A DNA stretch of 62,358 nt from Gammaproteobacteria bacterium. GTDB taxonomy: Bacteria; Pseudomonadota; Gammaproteobacteria; Steroidobacterales; Woeseiaceae. A program made the translations under genes and the position numbers. The notes beneath the pieces are model-generated. The model was not told where the DNA came from, did no database searches, and was given only the letters and a program-made list of their open reading frames with translations. This document shows positions 1-62,358 of this stretch, piece by piece (within the stretch, counting starts at the first letter, position 1; each line of letters opens with the position of its first letter). The DNA lies in NCBI GenBank assembly GCA_030429005.1, contig JAUIDP010000011.1:1-62358 (forward strand), written 5' to 3'.

Positions 1-1
1 C

Positions 2-592
2 AATAAGCTGGCGACTCTGCTAATTGCCTTCGTTTTTTTTTGGGGCCACATTTCAGCTTTTGCAAGTGACCCGCCTACCGCGTGGTCAAAGCGGTGGGAC
101 GCGAATGTTTGGAATAATTACTGTGAGCTCAAGCTTGATTACGAAATTCCATTTCGAAAGCACGTCGAACGACGAGGGTTTCTGGCGAATACGGGTTACG
201 ACAAAGCATTCGTACGCTTCACCGCGATGACCGGAACGCACTATGGCCTATACCCTGAAGCGGAGCTTTCCAGGATTAAGTTTCAGCTCTCTGTATATGG
301 CGAGAACGGTGAACTGCCACCTCCAATTGACCGAGTCGCATCCGCAAAAATAGGTGATTTCGAGCTTCACCAGCCGAATGATGCCAAATACGGGATACAC
401 ACCTTTTTGTTGGATGAGGAAGCGACATCGACGTTACTCGACATATTCCGGGCGAATGAGCGCGTGGATGTGGTTGTCCGACTCGCAAGTGGTGACGAAA
501 GGGTGTCGACTATCTATCCGTCTGGTGACCGGGATTTTCACGTCTGGGAAGCCATGTTTAATACGTGCATCGACAAAAACATAGCGCGCTGA
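2..592 (+). CDS. Secreted protein of unknown function, 5'-partial
   Basis: The frame is open from the first bases of the window, so the true start lies to the left and the entry is 5'-truncated; about 196 residues are visible. The visible N-terminus is a hydrophobic run (KLATLLIAFVFFWGHISAFA) followed by SDPP, a good Sec signal peptide with small residues at the cleavage point, so export is likely. The rest is hydrophilic and rich in acidic residues. I recognise no domain. A shorter start at ATG 227 would discard the signal peptide and is less likely. It is the leftmost visible member of the same-strand array and is followed directly by the first copy of the array repeat. Function unknown. 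Confidence 0.7.
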   Translation, partial: NKLATLLIAFVFFWGHISAFASDPPTAWSKRWDANVWNNYCELKLDYEIPFRKHVERRGFLANTGYDKAFVRFTAMTGTHYGLYPEAELSRIKFQLSVYGENGELPPPIDRVASAKIGDFELHQPNDAKYGIHTFLLDEEATSTLLDIFRANERVDVVVRLASGDERVSTIYPSGDRDFHVWEAMFNTCIDKNIAR

Positions 593-722
593 TGATTCGT
601 TTTGAACAACTGCATTGGGCCGGCCGCCGTAGTTAGTCTGGGTAGTTGTTGTGAGTCCGGTATGCTATCGGAAGCCGTCGGCCGAGCGTTTCACGATATA
701 ATCTCTACCTCCGACCCGAAGG
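593..722 (+). repeat. Array repeat, copy 1 (dyad plus promoter-like end)
   Basis: After the stop codon come a GGGCCGGCCGCC block and a second half reading CGGAAGCCGTCGGCC, forming an imperfect dyad. The copy ends with TATAAT at 697-702, then GACCC at 713-717, exactly 10 nt later. The final segment is nearly the same as copies 2 and 11. The GGAG ribosome binding site of the next gene overlaps its right end. Confidence 0.8.
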
Positions 723-733
723 AGACAGTCGGC

Positions 734-1066
734 TTGAAGTGGTTTTCATTGATTGCTGCTACGATCCTCCCCACAGGTTGTGCGTCCCAAATTGCAGAAA
801 CGGACTGCGAACTCGATCCTTCCGAACTCGAAGTGCTCCAAAGTCGAGCCATTCTATTCTTGGATTCGAAGTGGCAACCGAGTGGGGCAAAGTGCGAAGA
901 AATCACGGATTCCACGCAATACGTCCGCGGCTCTGGGTGCGGGATTTATGGCTTTCCTGCGGGTTCATCTAAGTCGGGTTGCCCTGATGCACTCGACGGT
1001 GATTACTACGTGATTTTCGATCCCGAATCACTTCAGCCAAGCGGGGTTGTGCTGATTGCGCATTGA
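734..1066 (+). CDS. Putative lipoprotein/secreted protein, unknown function
   Basis: I place the start at TTG 734, nine bases after GGAG (721-724), because the preceding open frame runs through the repeat. The 110-residue product then begins MKWFSLIAATILPTGCASQ. This is a short charged n-region, a hydrophobic core and a Cys that could be lipidated, although Pro-Thr-Gly before the Cys is an imperfect lipobox. The mature part carries four further Cys (CELD, KCEE, GCGI, GCPD), which suggests an extracytoplasmic disulphide-bonded fold. No family recognised. A TTG start fits the pattern in this array, where several genes use TTG. Confidence 0.6.
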   Translation: MKWFSLIAATILPTGCASQIAETDCELDPSELEVLQSRAILFLDSKWQPSGAKCEEITDSTQYVRGSGCGIYGFPAGSSKSGCPDALDGDYYVIFDPESLQPSGVVLIAH

Positions 1067-1190
1067 GCGCGACCGGCCGCCTGTGGCCGACTGCCGCAAT
1101 CGACCAGGAAGAATCCAAAAGGTCTGGTATGCTCTCGGAAGCCGCCGGCTCGTCGTTTGACGATATAATCGCAGCCTCTGACCCTTCTCC
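1067..1190 (+). repeat. Array repeat, copy 2
   Basis: Begins with GACCGGCCGCCTGTGGCCG straight after the stop. Its right half CGGAAGCCGCCGG gives the dyad. TATAAT lies at 1164-1169 and GACCC at 1180-1184, again a 10-nt gap. The last ~60 bp closely match copy 1. Confidence 0.8.
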
Positions 1191-1216
1191 GCCGATCGCA
1201 AGTCCTGACTTTCGAT

Positions 1217-1522
1217 ATGGAAAAAGCCTTCGCAAAAGAGACGTTCAAGGCATGGTTTGAAGCCAATCAATCAACGCTTGCGGAATTCGTTCACTCGAAA
1301 GACATCGATTCAAAAAGCGGTCGTGCTGCATGGGCTTCGATCCACCTGCCAAGTCATACCGTAGGAATCAGCGCATGGGATCATGAAAACAAGCTCGAAG
1401 TAATAATGATCGATACCGCGACAGAAGAGAGCAAGGTAGAAGACCGTGCTTACTCCAGCCGCGAGAAGCTTCAGGCTCGTCTTGATGCACTTTTGCAGCA
1501 ACTACTCGGCATGCGCGAATGA
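1217..1522 (+). CDS. Small cytoplasmic protein, unknown function
   Basis: ATG 1217 opens a 101-residue frame with no signal peptide or membrane segment. The sequence is mixed charged, with a central stretch (AAWASIHLPSHTVGISAWD) that reads as beta strands, and a C-terminal amphipathic helix rich in Leu, Arg and Gln. I do not recognise a family. It sits alone between copies 2 and 3 of the array repeat, so it is probably transcribed from its own promoter in copy 2. Real-gene status rests on this position, the clean frame and the correct orientation. Confidence 0.55.
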   Translation: MEKAFAKETFKAWFEANQSTLAEFVHSKDIDSKSGRAAWASIHLPSHTVGISAWDHENKLEVIMIDTATEESKVEDRAYSSREKLQARLDALLQQLLGMRE

Positions 1523-1690
1523 CTGGTTGTGGCCGTTTTCTGCCCGCAACAGTTTGCGCACCGAACGTCTGCTGCCGAAGCAAGCAGCCCTACAGATTGT
1601 CGGATTCGAAATAGTGAATATTGAATGTCCGGATACCTCGCGAAAGCAGCATATCGAGGGTGGTACACTGACGGTCTGTTGATGACCCAA
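1523..1690 (+). repeat. Array repeat, copy 3 (longer, diverged)
   Basis: CTGGTTGTGGCCG begins at the base after the stop codon. The middle is longer than in other copies. TACACT at 1664-1669 replaces TATAAT, and GACCCAA at 1684-1690 follows after 14 rather than 10 nt. Confidence 0.65.
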
Positions 1691-1725
1691 TCCAGCTGTT
1701 GGTCAACGAGACTTTATCCCTACAA

Positions 1726-1995
1726 ATGAAACGTGAAATACCTAAGCAGCTTGTTGTCCTTGCCGGAATAAGTGCATGTGTCTCCCTTGTTCTGGTTGTG
1801 ATCGGTATTCTTGTACTTGCGGGTATGCAGAGTCCGACGCAAGGAATGACTTATGGGTTCACACCCGAAATGCTCTCGAACCCGGTGTTTGTTGAACATC
1901 ATGTCAAAGCGTTCGGGTGGTTGTTTGCCGCAGGTTATCTGTCGGGCTTGATCATGATGTGGTTCGATCATCGTCGCTCTGTGCATTCAGACTGA
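1726..1995 (+). CDS. Small two-helix membrane protein, unknown function
   Basis: The 89-residue product starts at ATG 1726 with MKREIPKQ, a positively charged n-region. A ~25-residue hydrophobic helix follows (VVLAGISACVSLVLVVIGIL), then a loop, a second helix near residues 62-79 (FGWLFAAGYLSGLIMMW) and a short basic tail. It is probably an inner-membrane protein with both ends cytoplasmic. A TTG start at 1699 would add nine residues and cannot be excluded. No family recognised. It lies alone between repeat copies 3 and 4. Confidence 0.55.
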   Translation: MKREIPKQLVVLAGISACVSLVLVVIGILVLAGMQSPTQGMTYGFTPEMLSNPVFVEHHVKAFGWLFAAGYLSGLIMMWFDHRRSVHSD

Positions 1996-2078
1996 TCTGT
2001 CGAATGGCTGGTTGTGGCCGAAAGCACCAGTCAAGACCATTCTAGTCTCGAGTTAACTGTTGTGAGGTTGGCTAAGCG
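1996..2078 (+). repeat. Array repeat, copy 4 (degenerate)
   Basis: Only the left block is well kept: AATGGCTGGTTGTGGCCG shortly after the stop. The -10/GACCC end seen elsewhere is not recognisable. Confidence 0.55.
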
Positions 2079-2669
2079 ATGAAAAGACTCATAGTCGCCG
2101 TGTTTTCGTTCTGGCCACTTGCTGGGATGTGCGATCTTTCCGATGAAGACCCTAATGTCTTGTGCAAGCTATTGGAGCCATACGGAATTTTTCTTACAGA
2201 ATATGAGATTCCTAATGAAGAGCTACGGCCATTTTGTTTTGTGCGGAGCCAACCAACCTCAGCAAACGAAGACGGCTACGAATACTCATACCGGGTGATT
2301 TCTCATTTCAAAGAAGACTATCCAGATAGTTTATTCCTTCAGTTGAGTGGTACACCGTCGCAAATTCTTGGGCAAGAACCACATGCTCGGTACATGAAGA
2401 TGGCGGCAGTTATTCTGTCTAGTATTTATTCGCAGGAAGTCGTCGACGAGATCGTACTGGCAATTGAATCAATATCGCCGGGATTCAATCGTCACATGAA
2501 AGTAGAAGGGTTAGGTATTCAGTTGCGAGCAATCGACTACTCGCAGAGATCTGCCAATATGGAATGGCTTGAGATTCGATTTGACGTTCGTAACACATGC
2601 TACCTTGCAGAGCTTTCTGATCACCAGACGAAATGCTTGGCTGAACGCAAAGGTTCGCTTTCTGAATAG
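2079..2669 (+). CDS. Secreted protein, unknown function
   Basis: ATG 2079 follows a GAGG 11 bases upstream. The 196-residue product begins MKRLIVAVFSFWPLAGMCDL, a short Sec signal peptide with likely cleavage near the GMC or Cys site, so it may be periplasmic. Cys residues are scattered through the chain (LCKLL, FCFVR, NTCYL, KCLAE), compatible with disulphides. The rest is acidic and mixed alpha/beta, with no motif I can name. It is the longest intact product in the left half of the array. It is preceded by degenerate copy 4 and followed by copy 5, which carries an insertion. Confidence 0.6.
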   Translation: MKRLIVAVFSFWPLAGMCDLSDEDPNVLCKLLEPYGIFLTEYEIPNEELRPFCFVRSQPTSANEDGYEYSYRVISHFKEDYPDSLFLQLSGTPSQILGQEPHARYMKMAAVILSSIYSQEVVDEIVLAIESISPGFNRHMKVEGLGIQLRAIDYSQRSANMEWLEIRFDVRNTCYLAELSDHQTKCLAERKGSLSE

Positions 2670-2866
2670 CATGATTGCATGTTCTGAACGACCGCTTGTG
2701 CCTGCGGATTCAACCGGTCGTTGCAACACATTCAGCAAATTTCTCTGCCGGTGAATAGAATTGTAACGTCTCTTGAGAGAGTCTACGTGTTGCAACCACC
2801 GATTGAATCCGCAGCCGAAAGCGGCCGGCGGTCGGGACTGATGTAGAATAACGGCTTGTGACCCGA
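2670..2866 (+). repeat. Array repeat, copy 5, split by an insertion
   Basis: The left part GACCGCTTGTG and the right part CCGAAAGCGGCCGGCGGTC would join into a normal repeat copy if the 113-bp element between them (2702-2814) were removed. The promoter-like end is intact: TAGAAT 2844-2849, then GACCC 2860-2864 after 10 nt. Confidence 0.7.
2702..2814. mobile_element. 113-bp MITE-like element with 28-bp inverted ends
   Basis: The ends 2702-2729 and 2787-2814 are inverted copies of each other with 26 of 28 bases matching (CTGCGGATTCAA...GCAACAC). The internal 57 bp hold no gene. The ends resemble the terminal repeats of IS3/IS481-type elements as I remember them, so this may be a non-autonomous derivative; no search was possible. 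It sits inside a copy of the array repeat and separates that copy's two halves. No clear target-site duplication beyond a shared C. Confidence 0.65.
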
Positions 2867-2927
2867 AACGGTCATCCGATAATCGCTGTTTCTATGTCGA
2901 GTTCCCGCGATCAAATGGACAGTTAAA

Positions 2928-3422
2928 TTGTATGAGCCCCTGAGTGACCTGTACTGTGATATTGCGAGCGAGTCAATCGAAGCGCTTGGCCTAGTGCGAG
3001 CACCACCACGGGAGAACTCAAGAAGTCATCTTGGCTCAGAAGGACTTCTTTTCAGCTGTACACCTTGTTTGTTTTTACACTTGAGCCTTGACCCTATTGA
3101 CTCAGGCGCGGCAACGATGAGATTTGGGAGAAGGTGGCTGGGGCACGACGGCTGGTGGACGTTGTCGACCGCTTATCATGTCGTCGCGAACCAATTCGAC
3201 GTCGAATTTCCCCAATTCCACAAGCTTCGCCCCGGAAAAAGAAATCTGGTTGAAGATTTCACGTACTTAGCCGGTGACATCGAGAACACACTTCCAACAA
3301 TTCAATCGAAAATTACGGAGCGTGACCTGATCAATCTTGAGGCGGGAAGATTTGGTGCAAGAGAAATGGCCATAAGGAGGTATGGCACTGCCTTTGCGAG
3401 TCGGGTCACAATTAAAACCTGA
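2928..3422 (+). CDS. Hypothetical protein, weakly supported
   Basis: A 164-residue frame starts at TTG 2928 (the nearby ATG 2932 hits a stop at once). There is no signal peptide. The middle (LLFSCTPCLFLHLSLDP) is mildly hydrophobic, followed by a Trp/Gly-rich stretch (RRWLGHDGWWTLSTAYHVV) and a charged C-terminus. No family recognised. It is in the same orientation as the array and lies between repeat copies 5 and 6, which is the main reason to believe it. The start is uncertain and no strong ribosome binding site is visible. Confidence 0.45.
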   Translation: MYEPLSDLYCDIASESIEALGLVRAPPRENSRSHLGSEGLLFSCTPCLFLHLSLDPIDSGAATMRFGRRWLGHDGWWTLSTAYHVVANQFDVEFPQFHKLRPGKRNLVEDFTYLAGDIENTLPTIQSKITERDLINLEAGRFGAREMAIRRYGTAFASRVTIKT

Positions 3423-3520
3423 AACAACATGGCTCAGCGAATATTGGAACTTCGCACGACGTCCGGTTCTGGCCGGTTGAAGTCACCCAAGAACATAGAC
3501 GTACAATGGCTCATCAATAG
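3423..3520 (+). repeat. Array repeat, copy 6 (partial)
   Basis: GTCCGGTTCTGGCCGG lies about 40 bp after the stop codon, and TACAAT is at 3502-3507. The GACCC motif is not evident, so only part of the repeat is conserved. Confidence 0.5.
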
Positions 3521-3544
3521 CGCAAAGCAGACGGTCAGTTCCTC

Positions 3545-4330
3545 TTGAAAAGAGTAGCCTACTTGTTGGTTCTCCTTGCCCCGCTCACCGGCTTTGCGGC
3601 TCCAGATACGAAGTTCGATGGCGCTTACACCTGGGGCCACGAAGTCAATACATTCCAGTCTTGTGGTGACAGCCAAGTCTACTGGGTCTCAGCGTCGGCC
3701 CCGGTGCTCGATCAACTCAAGTCATACCATGACTCCGTACCAGGAGCCCCTTATCGTTCGATCTACGTTTCGATTCGGGGCGAATACCTGGACGAGGAAC
3801 TTGATGGATTTGCGGCCCAGTACGATGGATTGATTCAAGTTCGTGAGGTGTTGAGTTGGGACCCTGATGTGCCACTTGAGTGTGCGGCTAATTCCACAGT
3901 GCAGTGCGACTGGACCTCTAGTTTCCCGATCCCCAACGAGGAAAAACTTGAGTTCCAAGAATGCAGAACCGCGAATCGACTCAGGATTGGCGGGATCGAG
4001 GTCCAAGCGACCATTGAGTTCGACATCGTTCATTCCCACTATCCAGAGGGAAACTCGATTTGGAGTAGGCACTCGTCGGACGGAAAGACCGCTGTTGTCT
4101 GGATTGAGAATGAGAATCGCGAGAGAAATGCGTGGGTTATTGATCCGCAAGCGGGGGAAGTGCTTCTCTTCACCGATCGTTCGGAGGGGCACCATTTCAA
4201 TGTCGAATTCGACAACAACGATCGTTTCCGGATAGTTCACGCCGGTATGGGGTACAGAGCCGACGATGTGTACGAGCGAGTCGACGGTCTTTGGACGCAC
4301 ACTGGCCGCGACAAAGTCGACGTAGAGTGA
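3545..4330 (+). CDS. Secreted protein, unknown function
   Basis: The 261-residue product starts at TTG 3545 with MKRVAYLLVLLAPLTGFAA followed by PDTKF, a textbook Sec signal peptide, which supports the TTG start. The mature chain is acidic with several Cys (QSCGDS, LECAA, VQCDW, QECRT) and many Trp/Tyr residues, suggesting a beta-rich periplasmic or outer-surface protein. The C-terminal part has repeated strand-like segments (KTAVVWIENEN, GEVLLFTD). No family recognised. It is the largest product in the array and is flanked by repeat copies 6 and 7. Confidence 0.6.
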   Translation: MKRVAYLLVLLAPLTGFAAPDTKFDGAYTWGHEVNTFQSCGDSQVYWVSASAPVLDQLKSYHDSVPGAPYRSIYVSIRGEYLDEELDGFAAQYDGLIQVREVLSWDPDVPLECAANSTVQCDWTSSFPIPNEEKLEFQECRTANRLRIGGIEVQATIEFDIVHSHYPEGNSIWSRHSSDGKTAVVWIENENRERNAWVIDPQAGEVLLFTDRSEGHHFNVEFDNNDRFRIVHAGMGYRADDVYERVDGLWTHTGRDKVDVE

Positions 4331-4460
4331 TGAGTGTGAATGGCTGGTTCTGGCCGGTAGCACTCATTCGCCTGGATGCGAACTGAACTTCTGCTTTACC
4401 CGGATAAGCTGCCTGTAAATCGGTGTTAGACTCGACGTCTGTAGATGACCCGAACCGGAC
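4331..4460 (+). repeat. Array repeat, copy 7
   Basis: AATGGCTGGTTCTGGCCGG follows the stop after a short spacer and is nearly the same as copy 4. TTAGAC at 4426-4431 is a poor -10, and GACCC at 4447-4451 comes 15 nt later, so the promoter end has drifted. Confidence 0.65.
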
Positions 4461-4485
4461 GGACACGAAAAAGCAAGTTACTATC

Positions 4486-5019
4486 ATGCGCGTATTCGGC
4501 TGCATATTTATATGTTACGTGCTGCAGGCGTGCGCCGGCCACACACCGTATTCAAGCAAGCCATGTGGCGACGGTGTGAGTTTCTCTCGTGGAGTGGAAC
4601 TGACGGTGAGCCGAGTCGAGCTTCATTCTGACGTTACCCCTCCTTATCTATATCTATTTGAGGGCCAGTACATCATCAAGGTGAGACCGGACGACGTCGC
4701 TGATTTTCTGAGCGACGAGCCCCAACTCGGTGATTATCAGGCCCTACATCAAGCAGTTGCGGAGGACCTGCCTTTACAAGACAACACCGACGTTAAGAAA
4801 TACGCATTGGAAGAACCGAGACTTCTACGGACGATGAAGGAAGCCGTTGCTGGTGTGATTGAGTCGGGCAGAGCATCCATAGTCGATACCTACGGTGGAG
4901 AGTCTGGAGAAGCCCTTGAGGAAATTTCCCGCGTTCATATCGAAAGTTGTGGCGAAAGCCGTTACTTCTGTCGGAGCGAACAACACTTGGTCCTATTTGT
5001 ACCGGACAGTATTTGCTGA
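4486..5019 (+). CDS. Putative lipoprotein, unknown function
   Basis: Starting at ATG 4486, the 177-residue product begins MRVFGCIFICYVLQACAGH. LQAC is a fair lipobox with Cys16 as the lipidation site, so the protein is probably anchored in the inner or outer membrane. An upstream in-frame start at 4423 would run through the repeat and spoil the signal. The mature part contains paired Cys near the C-terminus (SCGES, YFCRS, DSIC). No domain recognised. It lies alone between copies 7 and 8 of the array repeat. Confidence 0.6.
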   Translation: MRVFGCIFICYVLQACAGHTPYSSKPCGDGVSFSRGVELTVSRVELHSDVTPPYLYLFEGQYIIKVRPDDVADFLSDEPQLGDYQALHQAVAEDLPLQDNTDVKKYALEEPRLLRTMKEAVAGVIESGRASIVDTYGGESGEALEEISRVHIESCGESRYFCRSEQHLVLFVPDSIC

Positions 5020-5096
5020 CGGCGATCTGACCGGCCGGTACTGGCCGTAAGCAGATAGTCGCCAGGTTTGGGCTACAATGGCAGGTATTGATCCAA
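5020..5096 (+). repeat. Array repeat, copy 8 (short form)
   Basis: GACCGGCCGGTACTGGCCG follows the stop. TACAAT is at 5074-5079 and GATCC at 5090-5094, a 10-nt gap. It lacks the long central part of copies 1, 2, 10 and 11. Confidence 0.7.
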
Positions 5097-5131
5097 TTCC
5101 GCCCCTCGAAATTTCTAAGGCATGCTAAGGA

Positions 5132-5428
5132 ATGGCGCAAACCGAAGAACGAGCATTCAGCCTCAAACGAGTAATGGGGCAATTGTTGCCAATATTCATT
5201 GCAAGTGTTGTATCGGTATTCGGGCTGCTGTTTCAGCAAATGTGGACGCACGCTCGGGGCTTTGACGGCTATGCGTTCGAGTATTGGGCACCACGAGCGC
5301 TTGGTGTGGTCTTGGTGACGACATTGCTCGGCTCAGCATTAATAAACAGAGGCTGGAAAGCGCGTTGTACGTTCGGATTCTTTGGAGGGCTGTTCGTCAG
5401 TTTCTTCTACATTTGGATCACAAACTGA
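5132..5428 (+). CDS. Small three-helix membrane protein, unknown function
   Basis: ATG 5132 directly follows TAAGGA. The 98-residue product has a short charged N-terminus (MAQTEERAFSLKR), then a helix near residues 16-34 (GQLLPIFIASVVSVFGLLF), a second near 53-68 (ALGVVLVTTLLGSALI) and a third near 78-95 (FGFFGGLFVSFFYIWI). It is most likely an inner-membrane protein. No family recognised. It is flanked by short repeat copies 8 and 9, so it forms a compact unit of about 370 bp. Confidence 0.6.
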   Translation: MAQTEERAFSLKRVMGQLLPIFIASVVSVFGLLFQQMWTHARGFDGYAFEYWAPRALGVVLVTTLLGSALINRGWKARCTFGFFGGLFVSFFYIWITN

Positions 5429-5496
5429 GCGGCTGGATTTGGCCGTAAGCGGAAGTCATGCGACTCTGAGTTATAATTTCCGCTATTGACCCAATT
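5429..5496 (+). repeat. Array repeat, copy 9 (short form, best -10)
   Basis: GCGGCTGGATTTGGCCG starts at the base after the stop. TATAAT is at 5472-5477 and GACCC at 5488-5492, again 10 nt apart. With only about 68 bp it is the shortest complete copy. Confidence 0.75.
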
Positions 5497-5535
5497 TAGC
5501 CGGTCGGCTAATGGCCTACAAAGGCAACTTTCGCA

Positions 5536-5835
5536 TTGAAAATCCCGCCAGACATAGAGTGGTACGTTCGCCGCAACTTTGAGGAGCCGGAAGCCACCGA
5601 TGCACTTCGTCTATTGGAAGGGGCTGTCCTTCATGATGGCCGCCTACCGGAGGACCGTATGCTGCGTTGTGCATTGGCCGCTAGCGATAACTCCCTCAAG
5701 AGCCTCGAGTATCACGTTGCCGGCCTGGTCATCGACTATCGGGATGTAATTCTGGCTGGGGAATACTATCGAAAAAACGGGGAGTTCGTTCAGGTAAGAG
5801 ATCTGTCCAAACCGTTTGATCTCGATGTGCTGTGA
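5536..5835 (+). CDS. Small conserved-looking hypothetical protein
   Basis: Starts at TTG 5536, about 12 bases after an AAGG. The 99-residue product begins MKIPPDIEWYVRRNFEEPEA and has no signal peptide or membrane helix. Its pattern (helical N-terminus, RMLRCALAASDNSLKSL, then VIDYRDVILAGEYY) reminds me of small hypothetical proteins seen in other proteobacterial cassette-like settings, but I cannot name a family. It sits alone between repeat copies 9 and 10. Confidence 0.6.
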   Translation: MKIPPDIEWYVRRNFEEPEATDALRLLEGAVLHDGRLPEDRMLRCALAASDNSLKSLEYHVAGLVIDYRDVILAGEYYRKNGEFVQVRDLSKPFDLDVL

Positions 5836-5949
5836 GCGACTGCATTTGGCCGTAAAGCGAAACTCTCAATAGGGTGGAATTAGTTTCTGCTTTGCGCTCG
5901 AAAGCGGCCGGTTGCTTGGTTCGCGCTATAATTACCGCCCGTGATCCGA
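5836..5949 (+). repeat. Array repeat, copy 10
   Basis: GCGACTGCATTTGGCCG follows the stop and the right half CGAAAGCGGCCGG completes the dyad. TATAAT is at 5927-5932 and GATCC at 5943-5947, a 10-nt gap. The motif overlaps a possible but unlikely GTG start at 5941 for the next gene. Confidence 0.75.
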
Positions 5950-6027
5950 AAGAGCCGATTGCGAATTAACGGGGGAGCCTCGACCATCAGAGAATTAGTG
6001 GCTACATGGAAGAGAAAACCTAGATCT

Positions 6028-6522
6028 ATGGGCGGCTGGAAGGTTTTTGTCGCAGTATGCCTGCTCACAGCACCCACTATTCACGCAGAATCCAAGGACG
6101 CTTATCTGATAATTCGATCATCCGTACTTCAAGAAGATCGTCGGCAGCCGACCTGGATATATTTATGTCGAGGACCCAGCGCCTGCTTGCACTATGACGC
6201 GAGGGGACCGATCACAAAGCTTAGACCGGCCACATATAGGCTTGAACATATTGACTTTGACGTGGATACCGACTCGTTCGTAGGCACACAGTATAACGAC
6301 GATACTTCTCATTTTACGATCGAAGCCGGTGGAATCTACTTTTTCGGTCATATTCAGCTGGATCGTAGAGGTAAGGGTCAATACAGAACGACCTTAATAA
6401 TGGACAAGGACTTAGCGCAAGACGCTTGTGCTGCAAATCCGGACATTTTCGAGCGATTTCCTGTGATAAACATTCACAATGGCGATAAGTTTAGGCTTAA
6501 TTGTATGAGCGACGAACCTTAG
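6028..6522 (+). CDS. Secreted protein, unknown function
   Basis: I prefer ATG 6028, giving 164 residues that begin MGGWKVFVAVCLLTAPTIHA followed by ESKD, a convincing Sec signal peptide with an AxA-like end. GTG 5998 (adding MATWKRKPRS) or GTG 5941 would extend it; the latter lies inside the repeat motif. The mature part is mixed beta with a Cys pair (YLCRG, SACLH) and one near the end. The pattern ITKLRPATYRLEHIDF...GGIYFFGHIQL recalls proteins that present short beta domains to the periplasm, but no family is assignable. Confidence 0.6.
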   Translation: MGGWKVFVAVCLLTAPTIHAESKDAYLIIRSSVLQEDRRQPTWIYLCRGPSACLHYDARGPITKLRPATYRLEHIDFDVDTDSFVGTQYNDDTSHFTIEAGGIYFFGHIQLDRRGKGQYRTTLIMDKDLAQDACAANPDIFERFPVINIHNGDKFRLNCMSDEP

Positions 6523-6647
6523 CTTTGCACTGATCGGCGGCTCCTGGCCGGGTGCAGAAACTTCCCACGGTGCGGGCTGATCGGCTGCTTTGCGTTCGGA
6601 AGCCGCCAGCCAGTCAAATCACGATATAATCTCCGCCTCTGACCCAA
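6523..6647 (+). repeat. Array repeat, copy 11 (most complete)
   Basis: GGCGGCT at 6536-6542 and AGCCGCC at 6601-6607 form perfect 7-bp inverted arms around a 58-nt centre. TATAAT is at 6625-6630 and GACCC at 6641-6645, 10 nt apart. The end is nearly the same as copies 1 and 2. Confidence 0.8.
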
Positions 6648-6719
6648 ACCGGACATACGTCATGGATGATCGTATCCGAGATTTGTAGCATTCAAGCACG
6701 ACTCAACAAGGCTTTGATT

Positions 6720-7235
6720 ATGAGAATCTCGTGCTCGACACTGACCTTCCTCGCTCTGGCTCTGCTGCACTCGGCGGTCTTGGCACAAACGTCCACCTAC
6801 GAGAACCCTGTTGACGGCAAAGAGTACACGGCAGACTGGGAGACGTACGAGCCAGAAACGCCAAAGAACGACTTCGATGCACGAGTGGCCATCGAAAACG
6901 TTAGGCTTCTTACATCGCAAGAGGACTTGGCCAAGCGCATAACTGTCGAGTCATTGGCCACTTACATCGAAAGTCTCGAAGCCGATTTGCTTGGATTGGC
7001 CGTAGGCTCCGACGATTCTGGAAAGGTATTGCTGCAAGTTGAATTGGGGCCGGAGCAGGCTCCTGTGCATCAACTTGCCTACGAAGGATCAGTGTCGACA
7101 GATCTGCTGCAGGCGTACTACGAGAGAATATCCGAACGCAAAGAAGTGCCCACTGTGCTTGGAGTAGTCTCTTTTCAGCTGTTCATGGTGGTCAGAGACC
7201 AATCCGGCGAAAAGGTCGATCAGCACCCAGAATGA
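6720..7235 (+). CDS. Secreted protein, unknown function
   Basis: ATG 6720 gives a 171-residue product beginning MRISCSTLTFLALALLHSAV followed by LAQTS, a clear Sec signal peptide with cleavage after LA. Starting at ATG 6666 would place 18 residues before it. The mature part is strongly acidic with helical heptad-like stretches (DLAKRITVESLATYIESLE), and no Cys remains. No family recognised. It is the last gene of the array. The next gene to the right lies on the other strand and belongs to the catabolic island. Confidence 0.6.
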   Translation: MRISCSTLTFLALALLHSAVLAQTSTYENPVDGKEYTADWETYEPETPKNDFDARVAIENVRLLTSQEDLAKRITVESLATYIESLEADLLGLAVGSDDSGKVLLQVELGPEQAPVHQLAYEGSVSTDLLQAYYERISERKEVPTVLGVVSFQLFMVVRDQSGEKVDQHPE

Positions 7236-7300
7236 CCTGCGCAGTAGGGGGCCGCTTGTGGCCGTCTCCTGCCTGACAGTCCCCCGCGTCGCTAGCCGTT
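7236..7300 (+). repeat. Array repeat, copy 12 (terminal, left half only)
   Basis: GGGGCCGCTTGTGGCCG follows the last array gene, but no -10/GACCC end is present and no same-strand gene follows. It marks the right border of the array. Confidence 0.6.
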
Positions 7301-7501
7301 CGAGCGACCGCTACCTGCAACAGCCGACGTTACCGCGGAAACATATTTTTGAACTTGGCCAAAATTCCTCCACGTGGAGCCATTCCTCGAATCTACATTA
7401 AGTATCGCGCCTACTGCGCCTCCACGTGGAAGAATGTTGAGCGAGTCGGAAAAACTGAGTCGAGCTTGCCAAGTTTAAATCCTGTTACCCGTTCGATGCC
7501 T
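7301..7501. other. Convergent intergenic spacer with a duplicated palindrome
   Basis: No gene is supported here. CCTCCACGTGGA occurs twice, at 7367-7378 and 7419-7430, and its TCCACGTGGA core is a perfect palindrome. The two copies can pair with each other or fold alone. They lie between the end of the array and the 3' end of a minus-strand gene, so a terminator or protein-binding role is possible but unproven. Confidence 0.4.
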
Positions 7502-9946
7502 TCAACAACGAATCTTCTTGTTGCCAGGATCGTACAGCGGCTTCAACGAAGCGTCCGCCGATACCCTGACGCCTGCGACTTCGATCTCGTAGTCGCCGTC
7601 GAGCACATCTTCCGACGTCACTTCTTCGCTCAAGTGCACGTAGCCGAGACCGATGCAGGCACCCAGCGTATGCCCATAAGCACCCGACGTGATGTGTCCG
7701 ACGATTTCGCCGTCACGCCAGATTGGTTCGTTGTGGTAGAGCAGGGGCTCGGGGTCGCGCAGCTGGAATTGCAGCAGGCGTTTCGGCGGACCCGCTGTCT
7801 TCTGTTCCAGTAATGCTTCGCGGCCAGTAAAACCTCCGGGTTTGTCGAATTTCACGGCGAATCCGAGACCCGCCTCGAGCGGCGTATCTTCGTCGGTGAT
7901 GTCGTGGCTCCAGTGCCGGTAGCCTTTCTCCATGCGCAGAGAATTCAGCGCGTGGTAGCCCGCATGTACGAGTCCGAACTGGTCGCCGGCTGCGACGATC
8001 TCGTCGTAGATGCCGAGCATGAATTCCGTCGGGATGTACAGCTCCCAACCGAGCTCGCCAACGAACGTGATGCGCGATGCGCGCACGTAGCCGAAGCCCA
8101 GTTCAATCTCCTGGCTGGTCGCAAATGGAAACGCCGCGTGACTCATGTCGGCGGGCGTCAGCGACTGCAGCAGATGCCGCGATTTCGGCCCCATCAGCGA
8201 GATGACGCCCATCGATGACGTCACATCGGTCAGCACGCAGTGGCTGTCCGCCGGAATGTGCTTTTTCAGCCAGGCGAAATCGCGCGTTTGCGTCTCGGCG
8301 GCAGTCACAATCAGGTAGGCATTCTCATCCAGCCGCGTGACCGTCAGGTCCGCTTCGATGCCGCCGCGATCATTCAGCCACTGCGTGTAAACCAGCCGGC
8401 CGGGTGCCACGTCAACATCGTTGGCGCAAACCTGGTTCAGGGCGGCCATTGCGTCGCGGCCTTCGAGACGAAATTTGGCGAACGATGACTGGTCGTACAG
8501 CGCGACAGCCTCGCGCGTGGCCCGGTGCTCCGCGGCGGAATACTCAAACCAGTTCTGCCGGCCGTAACTGTATTCGTACTTCGGCTCGACACCTTCCGGC
8601 GCGTACCAGTTGGGCCGCTCCCAGCCGAAAGCTTCGCCGTGACACGCCCCGCGCGCTGCAACCCGGTCGTGGATCGCCGACCTGCGCACACCGCGCGCGG
8701 TCTCGTACTGGCGGTACGGCCAGTGCGTGGCGTACAGCAGGCCAAGGCTCTCGCTGACGCGGGTCCGCAGGTACTTGCGGTTGCCCTGGAAGCGCATGTT
8801 GCGCCGCACATCGACTTCCCAAAGGTCAACCGGTGGGTACCCATCACGCATCCACTCGGCCATGACCTTGCCGATGCCACCGGCGGACTGCAGCCCGATC
8901 GAGTTCAGGCCGGCCGAGACAAAGCAGTTCTTGAGTTCCGGCGCTTCGCCAAGGTGGTAGCGCACATCCGGCGTGAAACTTTCCGGGCCACAGAAAAATT
9001 TCTGGATGCCGGCATCCTGCAGTGCGGGAATTCGTTCCATCGCGTCATGCAATACCGGTTCGAAGTGATCGAAGTCACCTGCGATCTCATCGAAGCAAAA
9101 GTCGTTGGCAATGCCGTCCATGCCCCAGGGTTTTGCCGACGGTTCGAACGCGCCGACGAGCAACTTGCCGGCGTCGTACTTGTAGTAGGTGCAGGCATCG
9201 TAGTCGCGCAGCACCGGCAAGGCAGGGTCCAGCCCTTCGACCGACTCGAATAGCGCGTAGTAATGTTCGCAGGCGTGCAACGGCAGGTTGACGCCAACGC
9301 TGGCCGCGAGGTCGCGCGACCACATGCCGCCACAAATCACGACGTAGTCTGCGGCGATGTCGCCGCTGGCTGTTGATACGCCGGTCACTCTGGCGCCGTC
9401 GTGGAGGATCTTCGTCACCAGAGTGTTCTGGAAGATCTGCGCGCCATTGCTGCGGGCACCTTTCGCCAGTGCCTGGCTGATATCGACAGCATTGGCGTAG
9501 CCGTCCGATGGAATGTGAATGCCGCCGAGCACATCGCTGCTGTTGATCAGCGGATAACGCTCGACGATCTCATCGACATCGACGACATTGACTTCGAGAT
9601 CGAACACCTTGGCCATCGATGCGCTGCGCTTCAATTCCTCGAAGCGTTCGGTATTCGTCGCAATCGATATCGAGCCGCATTGCCGGTAGCCGGTTGCCTG
9701 TCCGGTTTCCTCTTCGAGGCCGCGGTACAACTCGCTCGTGTACTTGGCAAGCTTGGTCATGTTGATGGAGGTGCGCAGCTGGCCGACGAGGCCGGCCGCG
9801 TGCCACGTCGTGCCGCTCGTCAGCTGTTGGCGTTCAAGCAAGACGACATCGCTCCAGCCGAGCTTCGCCAGGTGGTAGGCAATCGAACAACCAATCACGC
9901 CACCGCCGATGACGATGACATTTGCCTGCTTCGGAAGATCCGCCAT
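7502..9946 (-). CDS. Dimethylglycine/sarcosine dehydrogenase-like flavoprotein (DAO + GcvT)
   Basis: An 814-residue two-part enzyme. Residues 1-~390 form a DAO-type FAD fold with GGGVIG at 14-19. TTWHAAG at 46-52 contains the His that covalently binds FAD in the dimethylglycine/sarcosine dehydrogenase family. From ~430 to the end are FAO_M and GcvT-like aminomethyltransferase domains that bind tetrahydrofolate (GYRHWSHDITDEDTPLEAGL near 680-710). Expected role: oxidative N-demethylation with transfer of the one-carbon unit to THF. The substrate cannot be fixed from sequence. It starts 3 bp after the stop of the paralogous gene upstream, so the two form an operon divergent from the carnitine genes. 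Confidence 0.85.
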   Translation of the reverse strand: MADLPKQANVIVIGGGVIGCSIAYHLAKLGWSDVVLLERQQLTSGTTWHAAGLVGQLRTSINMTKLAKYTSELYRGLEEETGQATGYRQCGSISIATNTERFEELKRSASMAKVFDLEVNVVDVDEIVERYPLINSSDVLGGIHIPSDGYANAVDISQALAKGARSNGAQIFQNTLVTKILHDGARVTGVSTASGDIAADYVVICGGMWSRDLAASVGVNLPLHACEHYYALFESVEGLDPALPVLRDYDACTYYKYDAGKLLVGAFEPSAKPWGMDGIANDFCFDEIAGDFDHFEPVLHDAMERIPALQDAGIQKFFCGPESFTPDVRYHLGEAPELKNCFVSAGLNSIGLQSAGGIGKVMAEWMRDGYPPVDLWEVDVRRNMRFQGNRKYLRTRVSESLGLLYATHWPYRQYETARGVRRSAIHDRVAARGACHGEAFGWERPNWYAPEGVEPKYEYSYGRQNWFEYSAAEHRATREAVALYDQSSFAKFRLEGRDAMAALNQVCANDVDVAPGRLVYTQWLNDRGGIEADLTVTRLDENAYLIVTAAETQTRDFAWLKKHIPADSHCVLTDVTSSMGVISLMGPKSRHLLQSLTPADMSHAAFPFATSQEIELGFGYVRASRITFVGELGWELYIPTEFMLGIYDEIVAAGDQFGLVHAGYHALNSLRMEKGYRHWSHDITDEDTPLEAGLGFAVKFDKPGGFTGREALLEQKTAGPPKRLLQFQLRDPEPLLYHNEPIWRDGEIVGHITSGAYGHTLGACIGLGYVHLSEEVTSEDVLDGDYEIEVAGVRVSADASLKPLYDPGNKKIRC

Positions 9947-60556: not shown

Positions 60557-60632
60557 GCCGGATTAGCTCAGTTGGTAGAGCACATCATTCGTAATGATGG
60601 GGTCAGGTGTTCGAATCACCTATCCGGCACCA
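60557..60632 (+). tRNA. tRNA-Thr (anticodon CGU)
   Basis: 76 nt with an encoded CCA. Acceptor GCCGGAT pairs with ATCCGGC, D arm GCTC-loop-GAGC, anticodon loop TTCGTAA giving CGU (reads ACG), T loop TTCGAAT. TATACT at 60542-60547 may be its -10. A recombinase gene points at its 3' end, which makes it a likely integration site. Confidence 0.95.
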
Positions 60633-60668
60633 TTTTTTTCTAAGAAATTCTAAGGCCTTTTCTAAGCC
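60633..60668. repeat. TTCTAAG repeats at a tRNA-linked integration site
   Basis: TTCTAAG occurs three times, at 60638-60644, 60648-60654 and 60660-60666, between the tRNA 3' end and the recombinase stop codon. Such short direct repeats can be integrase or excisionase binding sites next to an attachment site. No second copy of the tRNA end is visible to prove an att pair. Confidence 0.45.
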
Positions 60669-61565
60669 CTACTTGACGGCACGCAGTCGCCTGGCGCGAT
60701 TGTAGAGTCGCATCAGGCCAAGGCCGGTCTCGTGATCAGAGTCTGCCTTGGCCCTGAGATCATGAAAGCGCCATTCGAAGTCGGCTCTCATTTTCAGTCG
60801 GCGCATGGCCGATTTGACGGCCTCTGCGGACCAGTGCTCGCCGAACTCATTCGTGAACACATAGCGGGTGTTGCTGCGAGCGAGCGCCCGTCTGACGACT
60901 TTCCGCAGGCTTTCCGTCCAGAGACGGAGCTCGTGCTTACCGTCTTTTGACTGCCGGACCTCGATTCCGTCAGGCTGCAGGTCATCGCGGGTCAGGTTGC
61001 GAAGGTCTTTTTGACGAAAGCCGGTCAGATAGGCTGCCCACAGCAGGTGCCGCAGGCCCGGTTTGGCGTAACGCAAGGCACGCCGGAGCGAGACATCGTC
61101 CACGTAGCAAGTTCTCGCTCGCTCTCGATTGCGGCGCACGCCGCGGCAGGGATTGAACACGCAGGCACGGATTCGGAGTCCGTAGTCGTAGACGCTGGAC
61201 AAGACAGCCATCTCTTTGTTGCCGATCGCAGCCCGGCCGGCCTGGTCGCGCATTTCCAAGTATGCGGCGACATCCTGCAACGTGAGATCGTCCGGATGCA
61301 TGTGGCCGCACCACGGCTTCAGTACCCGCTCAATGATTCGGTCGTAGTCTTTCTGTGTGGTCATCGCAAGGCGGGGTAGGCGGTTGCGCCGGTACGCTTC
61401 CATAACTTTGCCGAGCGTATCCGTACCTTTCTGCAGAAATTTCCACAGCTCTCCATGGAGGATGTGCTCCGGATCATCGGCGCGGCATAGTCGGTTCCAC
61501 TTACCGCCGTGGACGTAGTAGAGGCTGGGACCTTTCTGGTGGACCTTTGGGGGCAGTTTTTTCAT
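60669..61565 (-). CDS. Tyrosine recombinase with shortened C-terminus
   Basis: 298 residues. The catalytic core shows Arg in LTGFRQKDLRNL, Lys in RQSKDGKHELRL, and HDLR in WRFHDLRAKADSD. After HDLR, relatives normally have 30-plus residues with an LGH box before the Tyr; here only about 17 residues separate the Arg from Tyr in MRLYNR, and no GH is present. So it may be inactive or altered. ATG 61565 overlaps the DUF4224 stop (ATGA). It points toward tRNA-Thr. Confidence 0.75.
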   Translation of the reverse strand: MKKLPPKVHQKGPSLYYVHGGKWNRLCRADDPEHILHGELWKFLQKGTDTLGKVMEAYRRNRLPRLAMTTQKDYDRIIERVLKPWCGHMHPDDLTLQDVAAYLEMRDQAGRAAIGNKEMAVLSSVYDYGLRIRACVFNPCRGVRRNRERARTCYVDDVSLRRALRYAKPGLRHLLWAAYLTGFRQKDLRNLTRDDLQPDGIEVRQSKDGKHELRLWTESLRKVVRRALARSNTRYVFTNEFGEHWSAEAVKSAMRRLKMRADFEWRFHDLRAKADSDHETGLGLMRLYNRARRLRAVK

Positions 61566-61768
61566 CGGTCGCCTGCTGGCCAGTTCGGTCTACTTGTTCT
61601 ACGCCTCAAGATCGCCTGATTCAAGGCTTCTTCTGTCGTCCATGGCCGGCCGTCCGCATCAATTCCATAAAGAATGCCGCTCTTTTGCAGCCACCGGCGG
61701 ACAGCGGATGGCCGATGCCGGTTTGAAATCCTACGTAAATCATCAAAGCTGTAGGCGCGCCTACTCAT
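61562..61768 (-). CDS. DUF4224-like small protein
   Basis: 68 residues, with DDLRRISNRHRPSAVRRWLQ and then GILYGIDADGRPWTT, which fits DUF4224 (WL...G....DADGRP). Such proteins often precede phage-type recombinases; a DNA-binding or directionality role is a guess. It overlaps both neighbours by four bases (ATGA), forming a three-gene operon. Confidence 0.7.
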   Translation of the reverse strand: MSRRAYSFDDLRRISNRHRPSAVRRWLQKSGILYGIDADGRPWTTEEALNQAILRRRTSRPNWPAGDR

Positions 61769-62358
61769 CGCCCCAGGTACACCGTCGTGATCTGTTCCCG
61801 ATTGTGCCCCAGCTCGTTCGAGATCACGGCACGCGCTTTTTTGTCGAGCGCGCGCTGATCGTGGGAGAGGGTAGAGCGATTCGGCCCGCCGGCGAGCGGC
61901 GCCTTGAACCCAGTCAGTTCTTCAAATCGCCGCTGGGCATAGGCATGCCGCAGGCCGTGCATGTTCGAGAGGCCTGCGCGGATACACTGGCCTTCGTAGC
62001 AATTCTTCTGCTGTTTGTAGGACTTGTCGGCGCGGATCAGTGAGCCGGCGCCGGCGAGGGACTTGGCGTGCTCGAGCGCCTGTCGTTGACTGTCGGTACG
62101 TATCGGGATCTCGCGGGTTCTCCCACCCTTGGTCCAGCTGGGCTTGAGCCAGAGAATATTACCCTTGTCGGCCAGCCTGGGACGGATCTTGATGGCTTCC
62201 TCGCGTCTCAGACCAAATTCACTCTGCAGGATGAGGCTCATTTTGATGTAGGGGTCGGTGATTCTCTCGAGCTTGTCCGTTTCCAGGTCTTTTGCGCGGT
62301 TGGCGCTGTTCGCGTATTGCCGGCGCGGCAGCCCATAATGATCGTTCGAGCGGGCCAC
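61765..62358 (-). CDS. Second tyrosine recombinase (Integrase_1 type), partial at window edge
   Basis: About 197 residues are visible; the frame reaches the right edge, so the N-terminal arm-binding part is missing. Catalytic residues are intact: Arg in EFGLRREEAIKIRP, Lys in SWTKGGRTREIP, HGLRHAYAQRR, ISNELGHNREQ and Tyr in ITTVYLGR at the C-terminus. The pattern matches PF12835 integrases of integrative elements. It overlaps the DUF4224 gene by four bases. Confidence 0.8.
   Translation of the reverse strand: MARSNDHYGLPRRQYANSANRAKDLETDKLERITDPYIKMSLILQSEFGLRREEAIKIRPRLADKGNILWLKPSWTKGGRTREIPIRTDSQRQALEHAKSLAGAGSLIRADKSYKQQKNCYEGQCIRAGLSNMHGLRHAYAQRRFEELTGFKAPLAGGPNRSTLSHDQRALDKKARAVISNELGHNREQITTVYLGR

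Follow-up and report, generated by a model that had tools for sequence, protein, structure and literature searches.

The window analysed here is an entire contig of 62,358 nucleotides from a Gammaproteobacteria bacterium of the family Woeseiaceae (assembly GCA_030429005.1, contig JAUIDP010000011.1; G000:C114 in our numbering), and its sequence starts inside an array of twelve small genes, each followed by a repeat element built of two short blocks, b1 and b2. Comparison of this DNA with related genomes indicates that the region is probably a gene-cassette array kept up through conservative site-specific recombination by a small tyrosine recombinase. That the region consists of cassettes is very likely; granted that, we consider it quite likely, from sequence relationships, that the small recombinase carries out the exchange. 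An earlier note on this DNA had suggested that the repeat is the recombination site of an undescribed gene-shuffling system, and the unit-wise reshuffling, the breakpoints at the cores of the sites and the association of recombinase and sites all agree with that suggestion.

In the mechanism that we envisage, a cassette would comprise one gene, with b1 just after its stop codon and b2 just before the next start, and between the blocks a spacer carrying a -10-like hexamer. The recombinase, about 208 residues long, would bind both inverted arms of a site and exchange strands across the 6-bp core between them. If like pairs with like, units of gene plus spacer or of spacer plus gene could be excised, inserted and swapped, presumably through circular intermediates, and arrays could be rebuilt with any neighbour. 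If the hexamer belongs to a promoter, a cassette would be expressed wherever it lands.

Site anatomy and unit-wise movement of genes

We surveyed 236 elements in 104 sources from the window's genus plus one related family (29 genomes). Each element consists of b1 and then b2 on the same strand, and each block is a quasi-palindrome of about 26 bp around a 6-bp core (arm-TGGCCG-arm in b1, arm-TGACCC-arm in b2). The consensus of b1 is ncGnCcGCTtn-TGGCCG-naagcaGnC, also written CGNCYGCTTN-TGGCCG-NAAGCNGNC, and that of b2 is AtGnCnGCTnc-TGACCC-AAAGCgGaC, also written GNCNGCTNC-TGACCC-AAAGCNGAC, a layout suggestive of tyrosine-recombinase core sites. The distance from b1 to b2 is quantised, at 21 nt in 108 elements, 69 nt in 66, 137 or 138 nt in 19 and 77 or 78 nt in 13. 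The middle block of long copies, bx, lacks the hybrid core expected if the 69-nt spacing were simply the scar of an excision (21+48), and we do not claim such an origin. Within the spacers of 112 short elements, the -10-like motif TAnAnT stands at offset 17 in 58 and at offset 10 in 23. Where consecutive b1 blocks belong to different elements, they are on the same strand in 241 of 258 cases, and one contig of a related genome (L100, contig C14 of G010) has a run of 19 matches to the element model, all with the same orientation and roughly one for each small gene.

The window itself was scanned at a threshold of 13 bits with weight matrices for b1 and b2, derived from 49 elements in other genomes of the genus. 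Positions 1-7300 hold ten b1 blocks on the plus strand and one on the minus strand, and positions 7501-62358 none (one at 11 bits); 60 dinucleotide-preserving shuffles, scored on one strand, gave a mean of 0.03 and a maximum of one. For b2 the counts were five on the plus strand and none on the minus strand of 1-7300, none in 7501-62358 and a mean of 0.00 in the shuffles. Sought beyond the window with an element model, as the earlier note had proposed, the repeat is present in 60 of 73 genomes of the genus (E 1e-4).

Single genes change neighbours between species at block boundaries, consistent with the gene-capture layout that the note had described. The 108 reciprocal-best pairs found between genomes include 23 in which both members are array genes; none of 42 neighbours is conserved for array genes, against 11 of 41 for control genes away from elements in the same loci (Fisher p=0.0002), so relatives do not carry the same genes in the same order, as the note had allowed they might. 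Both homologues of gene 1 (G069, L325:7592-8176; G089, L327:6771-7370) lie inside arrays with differing neighbours, and the G069 match spans gene 1 and its element to end at window position 726, the final base of b2. The homologue of gene 5, 69% identical (G015, L326:6799-7389), is likewise in an array, with both neighbours different. Some cassette stretches shared between genomes are closer than the alaS region: 97% identity over 447 bp, to the contig end, against 75% for G002 and G015, 88% against 75% for G030 and G033, and 84% against 73% for G033 and G002. Plain tandem duplication of the repeat, which the note had offered as an alternative, is unsupported because the twelve proteins are unrelated, with no similarity at E 0.01 in pairwise comparison. 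Nor does the repeat behave as an ordinary dispersed terminator, a further possibility that the note had raised: we found five sites resembling intrinsic terminators in 1-7500 (mean of 7.4 in shuffles), none of them at an element.

Changes of sequence identity place the exchanges within the sites. Interiors are at least 90% identical in 41 pairs of elements, 38 of them within one genome, although the pairs are not independent because they were drawn from 46 elements. In all 41, both 60-bp flanks are less than 45% identical, with means of 27% and 28% against 26% and 27% for random pairs. At b1, the base directly following TGGCCG has an identity of 0.93, and the two bases ahead of this core are at background level (0.37 versus 0.32; 0.44 versus 0.49); at b2, it is 0.76 and 0.83 on the last two bases before TGACCC and 0.56 on the first base after, where the background is 0.58. 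Because identity drops beside both cores, the breakpoints map to the 6-bp cores themselves, whose invariance prevents finer placing. Homologous cassettes at separate locations have the opposite pattern: they resemble each other on the gene side, and on the inner side identity is mostly close to background (five pairs at b1, six at b2). A chimera in the window's own genome illustrates such an exchange: on contig C56, an 85% copy of cassette 9 (G000:C56:1244-862, minus strand) extends up to b1, beyond which the sequence is a 95% copy of ig3, the element that stands behind gene 3 in the window.

A search with the arms fixed and the core free returned 795 distinct matches, among which TGGCCG occurred 103 times and TGACCC 102 times (reverse complements 73 and 132), and the hybrid cores TGGCCC and TGACCG three times and twice. 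The reversed control sequence gave 538 matches, with no core more than five times. The rarity of hybrid cores suggests that b1 pairs with b1 and b2 with b2.

A small tyrosine recombinase beside the arrays

Scanning array loci with known tyrosine recombinases revealed two related proteins of about 215 residues inside arrays, one in G036 and one in G044, the latter a genome of another family. The candidate enzyme so identified is a tyrosine recombinase of about 208 residues without a core-binding domain. It matches PF00589 at 71.9 bits (cut-off 27.1), and the similarity of a 212-aa query to XerD begins at query residue 46, equivalent to XerD residue 129, and is aligned to XerD residues 129-283. 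R63, K91, H160, R163, H186 and Y195, which we take to be the catalytic residues of tyrosine recombinases, are invariant in 16 sequences of the protein. Among the NCBIfam recombinase models none comes near its cut-off (best XerA, 71 bits versus 220), and the IntI model gives 30 bits (cut-off 265). Structure prediction of one sequence (P0036) was too poor to be used, with a mean pLDDT of 55.

A protein search of 60 genomes of the order found five full-length copies, a 54% relative in G011 and fragments elsewhere. An element lies 5′ of all five full-length copies, weakly so in G036 (9.5 bits); on the 3′ side it is clear in G027 and G016, weak in G044 and G007, and not found in G036. A wider search of the genus gave seven loci that were scored. 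In five of them (G065 and G091 newly seen), b2 lies 97-102 bp ahead of the inferred start and on the opposite strand; in three of the seven, a b2 lies 72-73 bp past the recombinase stop. The eight genus genomes that carry a close recombinase have 8-29 elements each, against a median of four in the other 65 (p=0.002). In the window's genome (3.14 Mb in 125 contigs, 85% complete), a C-terminal recombinase fragment lies at one edge of contig C63; its identity over residues 175-210 is 67%.

The association of recombinase and site extends well beyond the genus. A scan of named genomes yielded at least 583 relatives, of which the best 80 were kept; these come from Pseudomonas, Burkholderia, Massilia, Halomonas, Achromobacter and others, and 72 of their loci could be scored with matrices from 59 elements of the window's genus, a block being called at 11 bits. 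A block lies within 300 bp of the recombinase in 37 of the 72 loci, on both sides in 13, against a background of 0.0585 blocks per 300 bp in the same loci; among other tyrosine recombinases of the window's order the figure is one in 25 (p=1e-5). The distance of b1 after the recombinase stop also recurs, at 30 bp in ten of these loci and 21-26 bp in seven, and Massilia aurea has further clusters of b1 sites. Cruder searches recovered less: when 12-mers were sought de novo near the recombinase in 21 loci from other taxa, L228 alone yielded the site, and a simple b1 pattern run over ten named genomes was partly swamped by coding matches and gave none in one. The protein itself may be widespread, with at least 7,999 candidate relatives at E 0.001, the 120 matches listed being 70-99% identical, and a relative at 60% identity or more in 224 plasmid records. 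An unannotated 6.8-kb faecal phage record (L303, MT837468.1) encodes a 67% relative.

Weighing the proposal against alternatives and known systems

Several observations weigh against the proposal. A block at 11 bits is missing from 35 of the 72 recombinase loci of other taxa, and half of the 59 training elements came from one genome (29 from G010). The 54% relative in G011 has no block beside its gene, and the C63 fragment is followed after its stop by a block-like sequence that the matrices leave unscored. A close copy of the recombinase (65-69% identical) occurs in only eight of the 73 genus genomes, far fewer than have elements, and arrays occur without it in G010 and G030, which are 93% and 99% complete; in the window's own genome we found no intact recombinase. 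Array-bearing genomes without the enzyme may be like integron-less cassette arrays, or the arrays may break assemblies. As to gene movement, neighbour conservation among the control genes is itself low (27%) and the caller of open reading frames (ORFs) was crude, and for several cassette pairs identity does not exceed that of the alaS region (gene 5, for example, at 73% versus 74%). The breakpoint profile comes from pairs selected for similar interiors, some bases to the right of TGACCC are above background (0.85 versus 0.63; 0.78 versus 0.65), and the exchange point in the C56 chimera is ambiguous because its left arm resembles the ig3 parent. Finally, a sigma-70 consensus scan of 1-7500 found five promoter-like sites against 5.8 in shuffles, no excess, so that it is the hexamer at its fixed position that points to a promoter in the spacer.

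One alternative explanation is a degenerate integron, that is, a CALIN (an array without integrase) with diverged attC sites, moved by IntI on folded single strands. It would share the architecture of one-gene units in same-strand arrays, and a search of 60 genomes did find IntI above cut-off in 11, of which G028 alone belongs to the genus; G044 is one of the remaining ten. We nevertheless regard it as very unlikely. The window's own genome has no IntI above cut-off (TIGR02249 reaches 84 bits at best, an XerC/D-type match, against 265), and the attC core pattern RYYYAAC...GTTRRRY occurs in one of 236 elements per strand (0.75 in shuffles) and in none of the twelve in the window, matching the earlier note's remark that neither integrase nor canonical attC was visible. 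An attC-like paired fold, suspected by eye from L100, was rejected on covariation: compared with shuffled arms, z was 1.61 for the outer arms of short elements and -1.94 for those of long ones, 0.07 and 1.11 for the inner arms, and at most 2.2 in absolute value over eight tests. Moreover, breakpoints fall in two different cores rather than in one. The two systems may coexist, as loci of G044 (L129, G044:C1; L176, G044:C11) include the small recombinase with arrays as well as an integron integrase (378 bits).

The same arrays and sites might also be served by another enzyme, either XerC/D or the integrases, presumably of P4 type, that adjoin arrays in the window's genome (G000:C5:3639-4886 and G000:C108:163-864). 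This is improbable, though the least so of the alternatives. XerC/D-like proteins were matched throughout, the layout of two arms around 6 bp resembles a Xer site, and the C5 integrase is the sole control recombinase with a block within 300 bp. The other 24 of 25 controls have none, however, and the small recombinase is tied to sites in several genera; an 11-bp XerD arm, with up to two mismatches allowed, matched twice in the window, never in the array, with 3.4 matches expected. The P4-type integrases had been our first choice and were given up, as recombinases of this type turned up at few further array loci; possibly they belong to islands that use arrays as landing sites. A more general notion of tRNA-targeted islands, prompted by tRNA genes in five of 26 array loci, was also set aside, most loci having none.

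A third explanation dispenses with a dedicated recombinase: repeats of 75-180 bp could recombine through RecA or microhomology, and the -10-like hexamer at fixed spacer offsets would fit a repeat that serves as a promoter or processing module; the many array-bearing genomes in which no recombinase was found would also suit this explanation. The concentration of breakpoints at 6-bp cores, instead of along the element, and the recombinase–site association make this improbable as well, and slightly more so than another enzyme. Equally unlikely as the integron is a non-autonomous transposable element, whether a miniature inverted-repeat transposable element (MITE) or REPIN-like, with b1 and b2 as terminal repeats, inserted behind many static genes. 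Near-identical interiors at several places of one genome and the resemblance of b1 and inverted b2 to terminal repeats would suit it. Yet the array genes do not look like otherwise syntenic DNA with insertions, none of their 42 neighbours being conserved; successive elements mostly share a strand; the L100 run has about one element per gene; and between homologous genes the similarity lies on the gene side of the blocks, with the inner side mostly near background.

Compared with known systems, the proposed small-recombinase system has much in common with integrons and CALINs, which share one-gene cassettes on one strand, each with its site and exchanged as a unit, probably by a tyrosine recombinase, as well as cassettes common to several species, many arrays without a recombinase and a recombinase gene divergent from one array arm. 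It differs in a recombinase that has no core-binding domain and scores far below IntI, in two core types in place of R″ and R′ with no covariation for a folded strand, in the -10-like hexamer of most short elements and in elements that flank the recombinase gene on both sides (G016, G027, G091). In the pdif/XerCD modules of Acinetobacter plasmids, genes are bounded by short sites, each with a 6-bp centre between two arms like the sites described here; the array, in contrast, lacks the XerD arm at up to two mismatches and combines a small recombinase with its own gene beside arrays, long single-strand arrays and paired b1-spacer-b2 elements. Small tyrosine invertases, which we label FimB/FimE-type, likewise have about 200 residues and a catalytic domain only, whereas the recombinase here scores 18-19 bits with NCBI models of tyrosine-type DNA invertases (cut-offs 221-222) and is found with cassette arrays rather than one invertible switch. 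Simple tyrosine recombinases 'usually' consist of core-binding and catalytic domains (Smyshlyaev et al. 2021, PMC8138268), and section 7 of that paper describes no catalytic-only cassette recombinase. The protein studied here shares with the simple tyrosine recombinases an Xer-like catalytic domain (XerA being its best NCBIfam match) and differs in lacking an N-terminal core-binding domain.

On balance we lean towards regarding these elements as a second, independently evolved gene-capture platform across Beta- and Gammaproteobacteria, with a catalytic-domain-only recombinase, two orthogonal double-stranded sites of about 26 bp, and gene cassettes and promoter spacers that would be swapped independently. 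No such system was described among the literature matches listed, which covered open-licence papers only and do not prove its absence. Integrons are regarded as the bacterial gene-cassette system and have spread resistance genes; if our proposal is true, a route of single-gene transfer with a minimal enzyme and simple sites has been overlooked, its reach may be wide, and many 'hypothetical' small genes beside such repeats would become identifiable cassettes. If active, a compact recombinase with two possibly orthogonal sites could also serve as a tool.

Genes and elements of the array in the window

The twelve one-gene units have ORFs between positions 2 and 7235, all on the plus strand; the earlier note had the strand right and counted eleven genes. 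Gene 1 (2..592) is truncated, its 5′ end lost at the contig edge. Genes 3 (1217..1522), 5 (2079..2669), 6 (2928..3422) and 10 (5536..5835) are plain ORFs. Two products are lipoprotein-like, those of gene 2 (734..1066, ORF 602-1066; lipobox read from the sequence) and gene 8 (4486..5019, ORF 4423-5019), and two are membrane proteins, those of gene 4 (1726..1995, ORF 1699-1995) and gene 9 (5132..5428). Signal peptides are visible by eye in the ORF of gene 7 (3545..4330) and in genes 11 (6028..6522, ORF 5941-6522, with an in-frame ATG at 6028) and 12 (6720..7235, ORF 6666-7235); the starts of genes 2, 4, 8, 11 and 12 are inferred. Ten of the window's array proteins were scanned against Pfam and none reached the cut-off (best 18.3 bits versus 22), in keeping with the note's view that none is recognisable. 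In a scan of 92 proteins from the arrays, the matches are spread among 64 Pfam families, none with more than two members, including acetyltransferases, glyoxalase-like proteins, hydrolases and ankyrin repeats. A strongly hydrophobic segment occurs in 119 of 194 array proteins; for control ORFs the count is 277 of 697. G+C content is 0.49-0.54 in 1-8000 and 0.56-0.64 further on, in line with the higher AT content that the note had contrasted with the region beyond 7500.

The two-block element recurs 3′ of each of the twelve genes, as the note had observed, with b1 starting from -3 to about +37 bp relative to the stop codon. The left block that the note had drawn is b1; its right block, CGGAAGCCGCC, is the third block bx, found in long copies only, and b2 (TGACCC) and the TATAAT-like hexamer had been missed. 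All elements lie on the plus strand. The long elements are ig1 (604..730; degenerate b1, bx, TATAAT, b2 at 701-726), ig2 (1071..1196; b1 1073-1098), ig7 (4338..4462; b1 4340-4365, b2 4435-4460), ig10 (5834..5960; b1 5836-5861) and ig11 (6532..6655; b1 6534-6559, b2 6629-6654). The longest, ig3 (1519..1697; b1 1519-1544, b2 1672-1697), has copies in its own genome, 1521-1696 recurring at 95% on C56 with a different gene ahead and 1565-1690 at 94% on C23. Short elements are ig8 (5029..5105; b1 5031-5056, a 21-nt spacer, b2 5078-5103) and ig9 (5427..5503; b1 5429-5454, b2 5476-5501). Single b1 blocks make up ig4 (2004..2029; 21.7 bits) and ig6 (3459..3484; 24.6 bits), and the last element, ig12, is marked by its b1 block (7248..7273; 19.1 bits). 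The b1 matrix misses two copies, ig1 with its degenerate core and ig5 (2685..2873; b2 2848-2873), whose b1 is interrupted by a 139-bp insertion; a model built from seven window copies scores ig5 (2812-2873) and ig1 (604-728, 82.2 bits), the latter being one of its training copies.

The insertion in ig5 (2689-2827) has 41-nt inverted arms, 85% complementary, and parts of it recur in many genus genomes at 76-97% identity, so that it looks like a separate dispersed MITE-like element. When the twelve intergenic regions were folded as single strands, ig5 alone stood out through this inserted inverted repeat (z -5.2; next ig7, -2.1). An Rfam scan of 1-9000 gave one match, below threshold, over the same insertion, and five array loci gave tRNAs only. 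Just to the right of the array, 7327-7453 is an inverted repeat of which 70-96 bp recur in G028, G035 and G061 (79-81%), another dispersed repeat. At the far end of the window, 60557-62358 holds a tRNA-Thr and, after it, two minus-strand genes for tyrosine recombinases (60669-61565, and from 61765 up to the contig edge), which looks like the edge of a genomic island.

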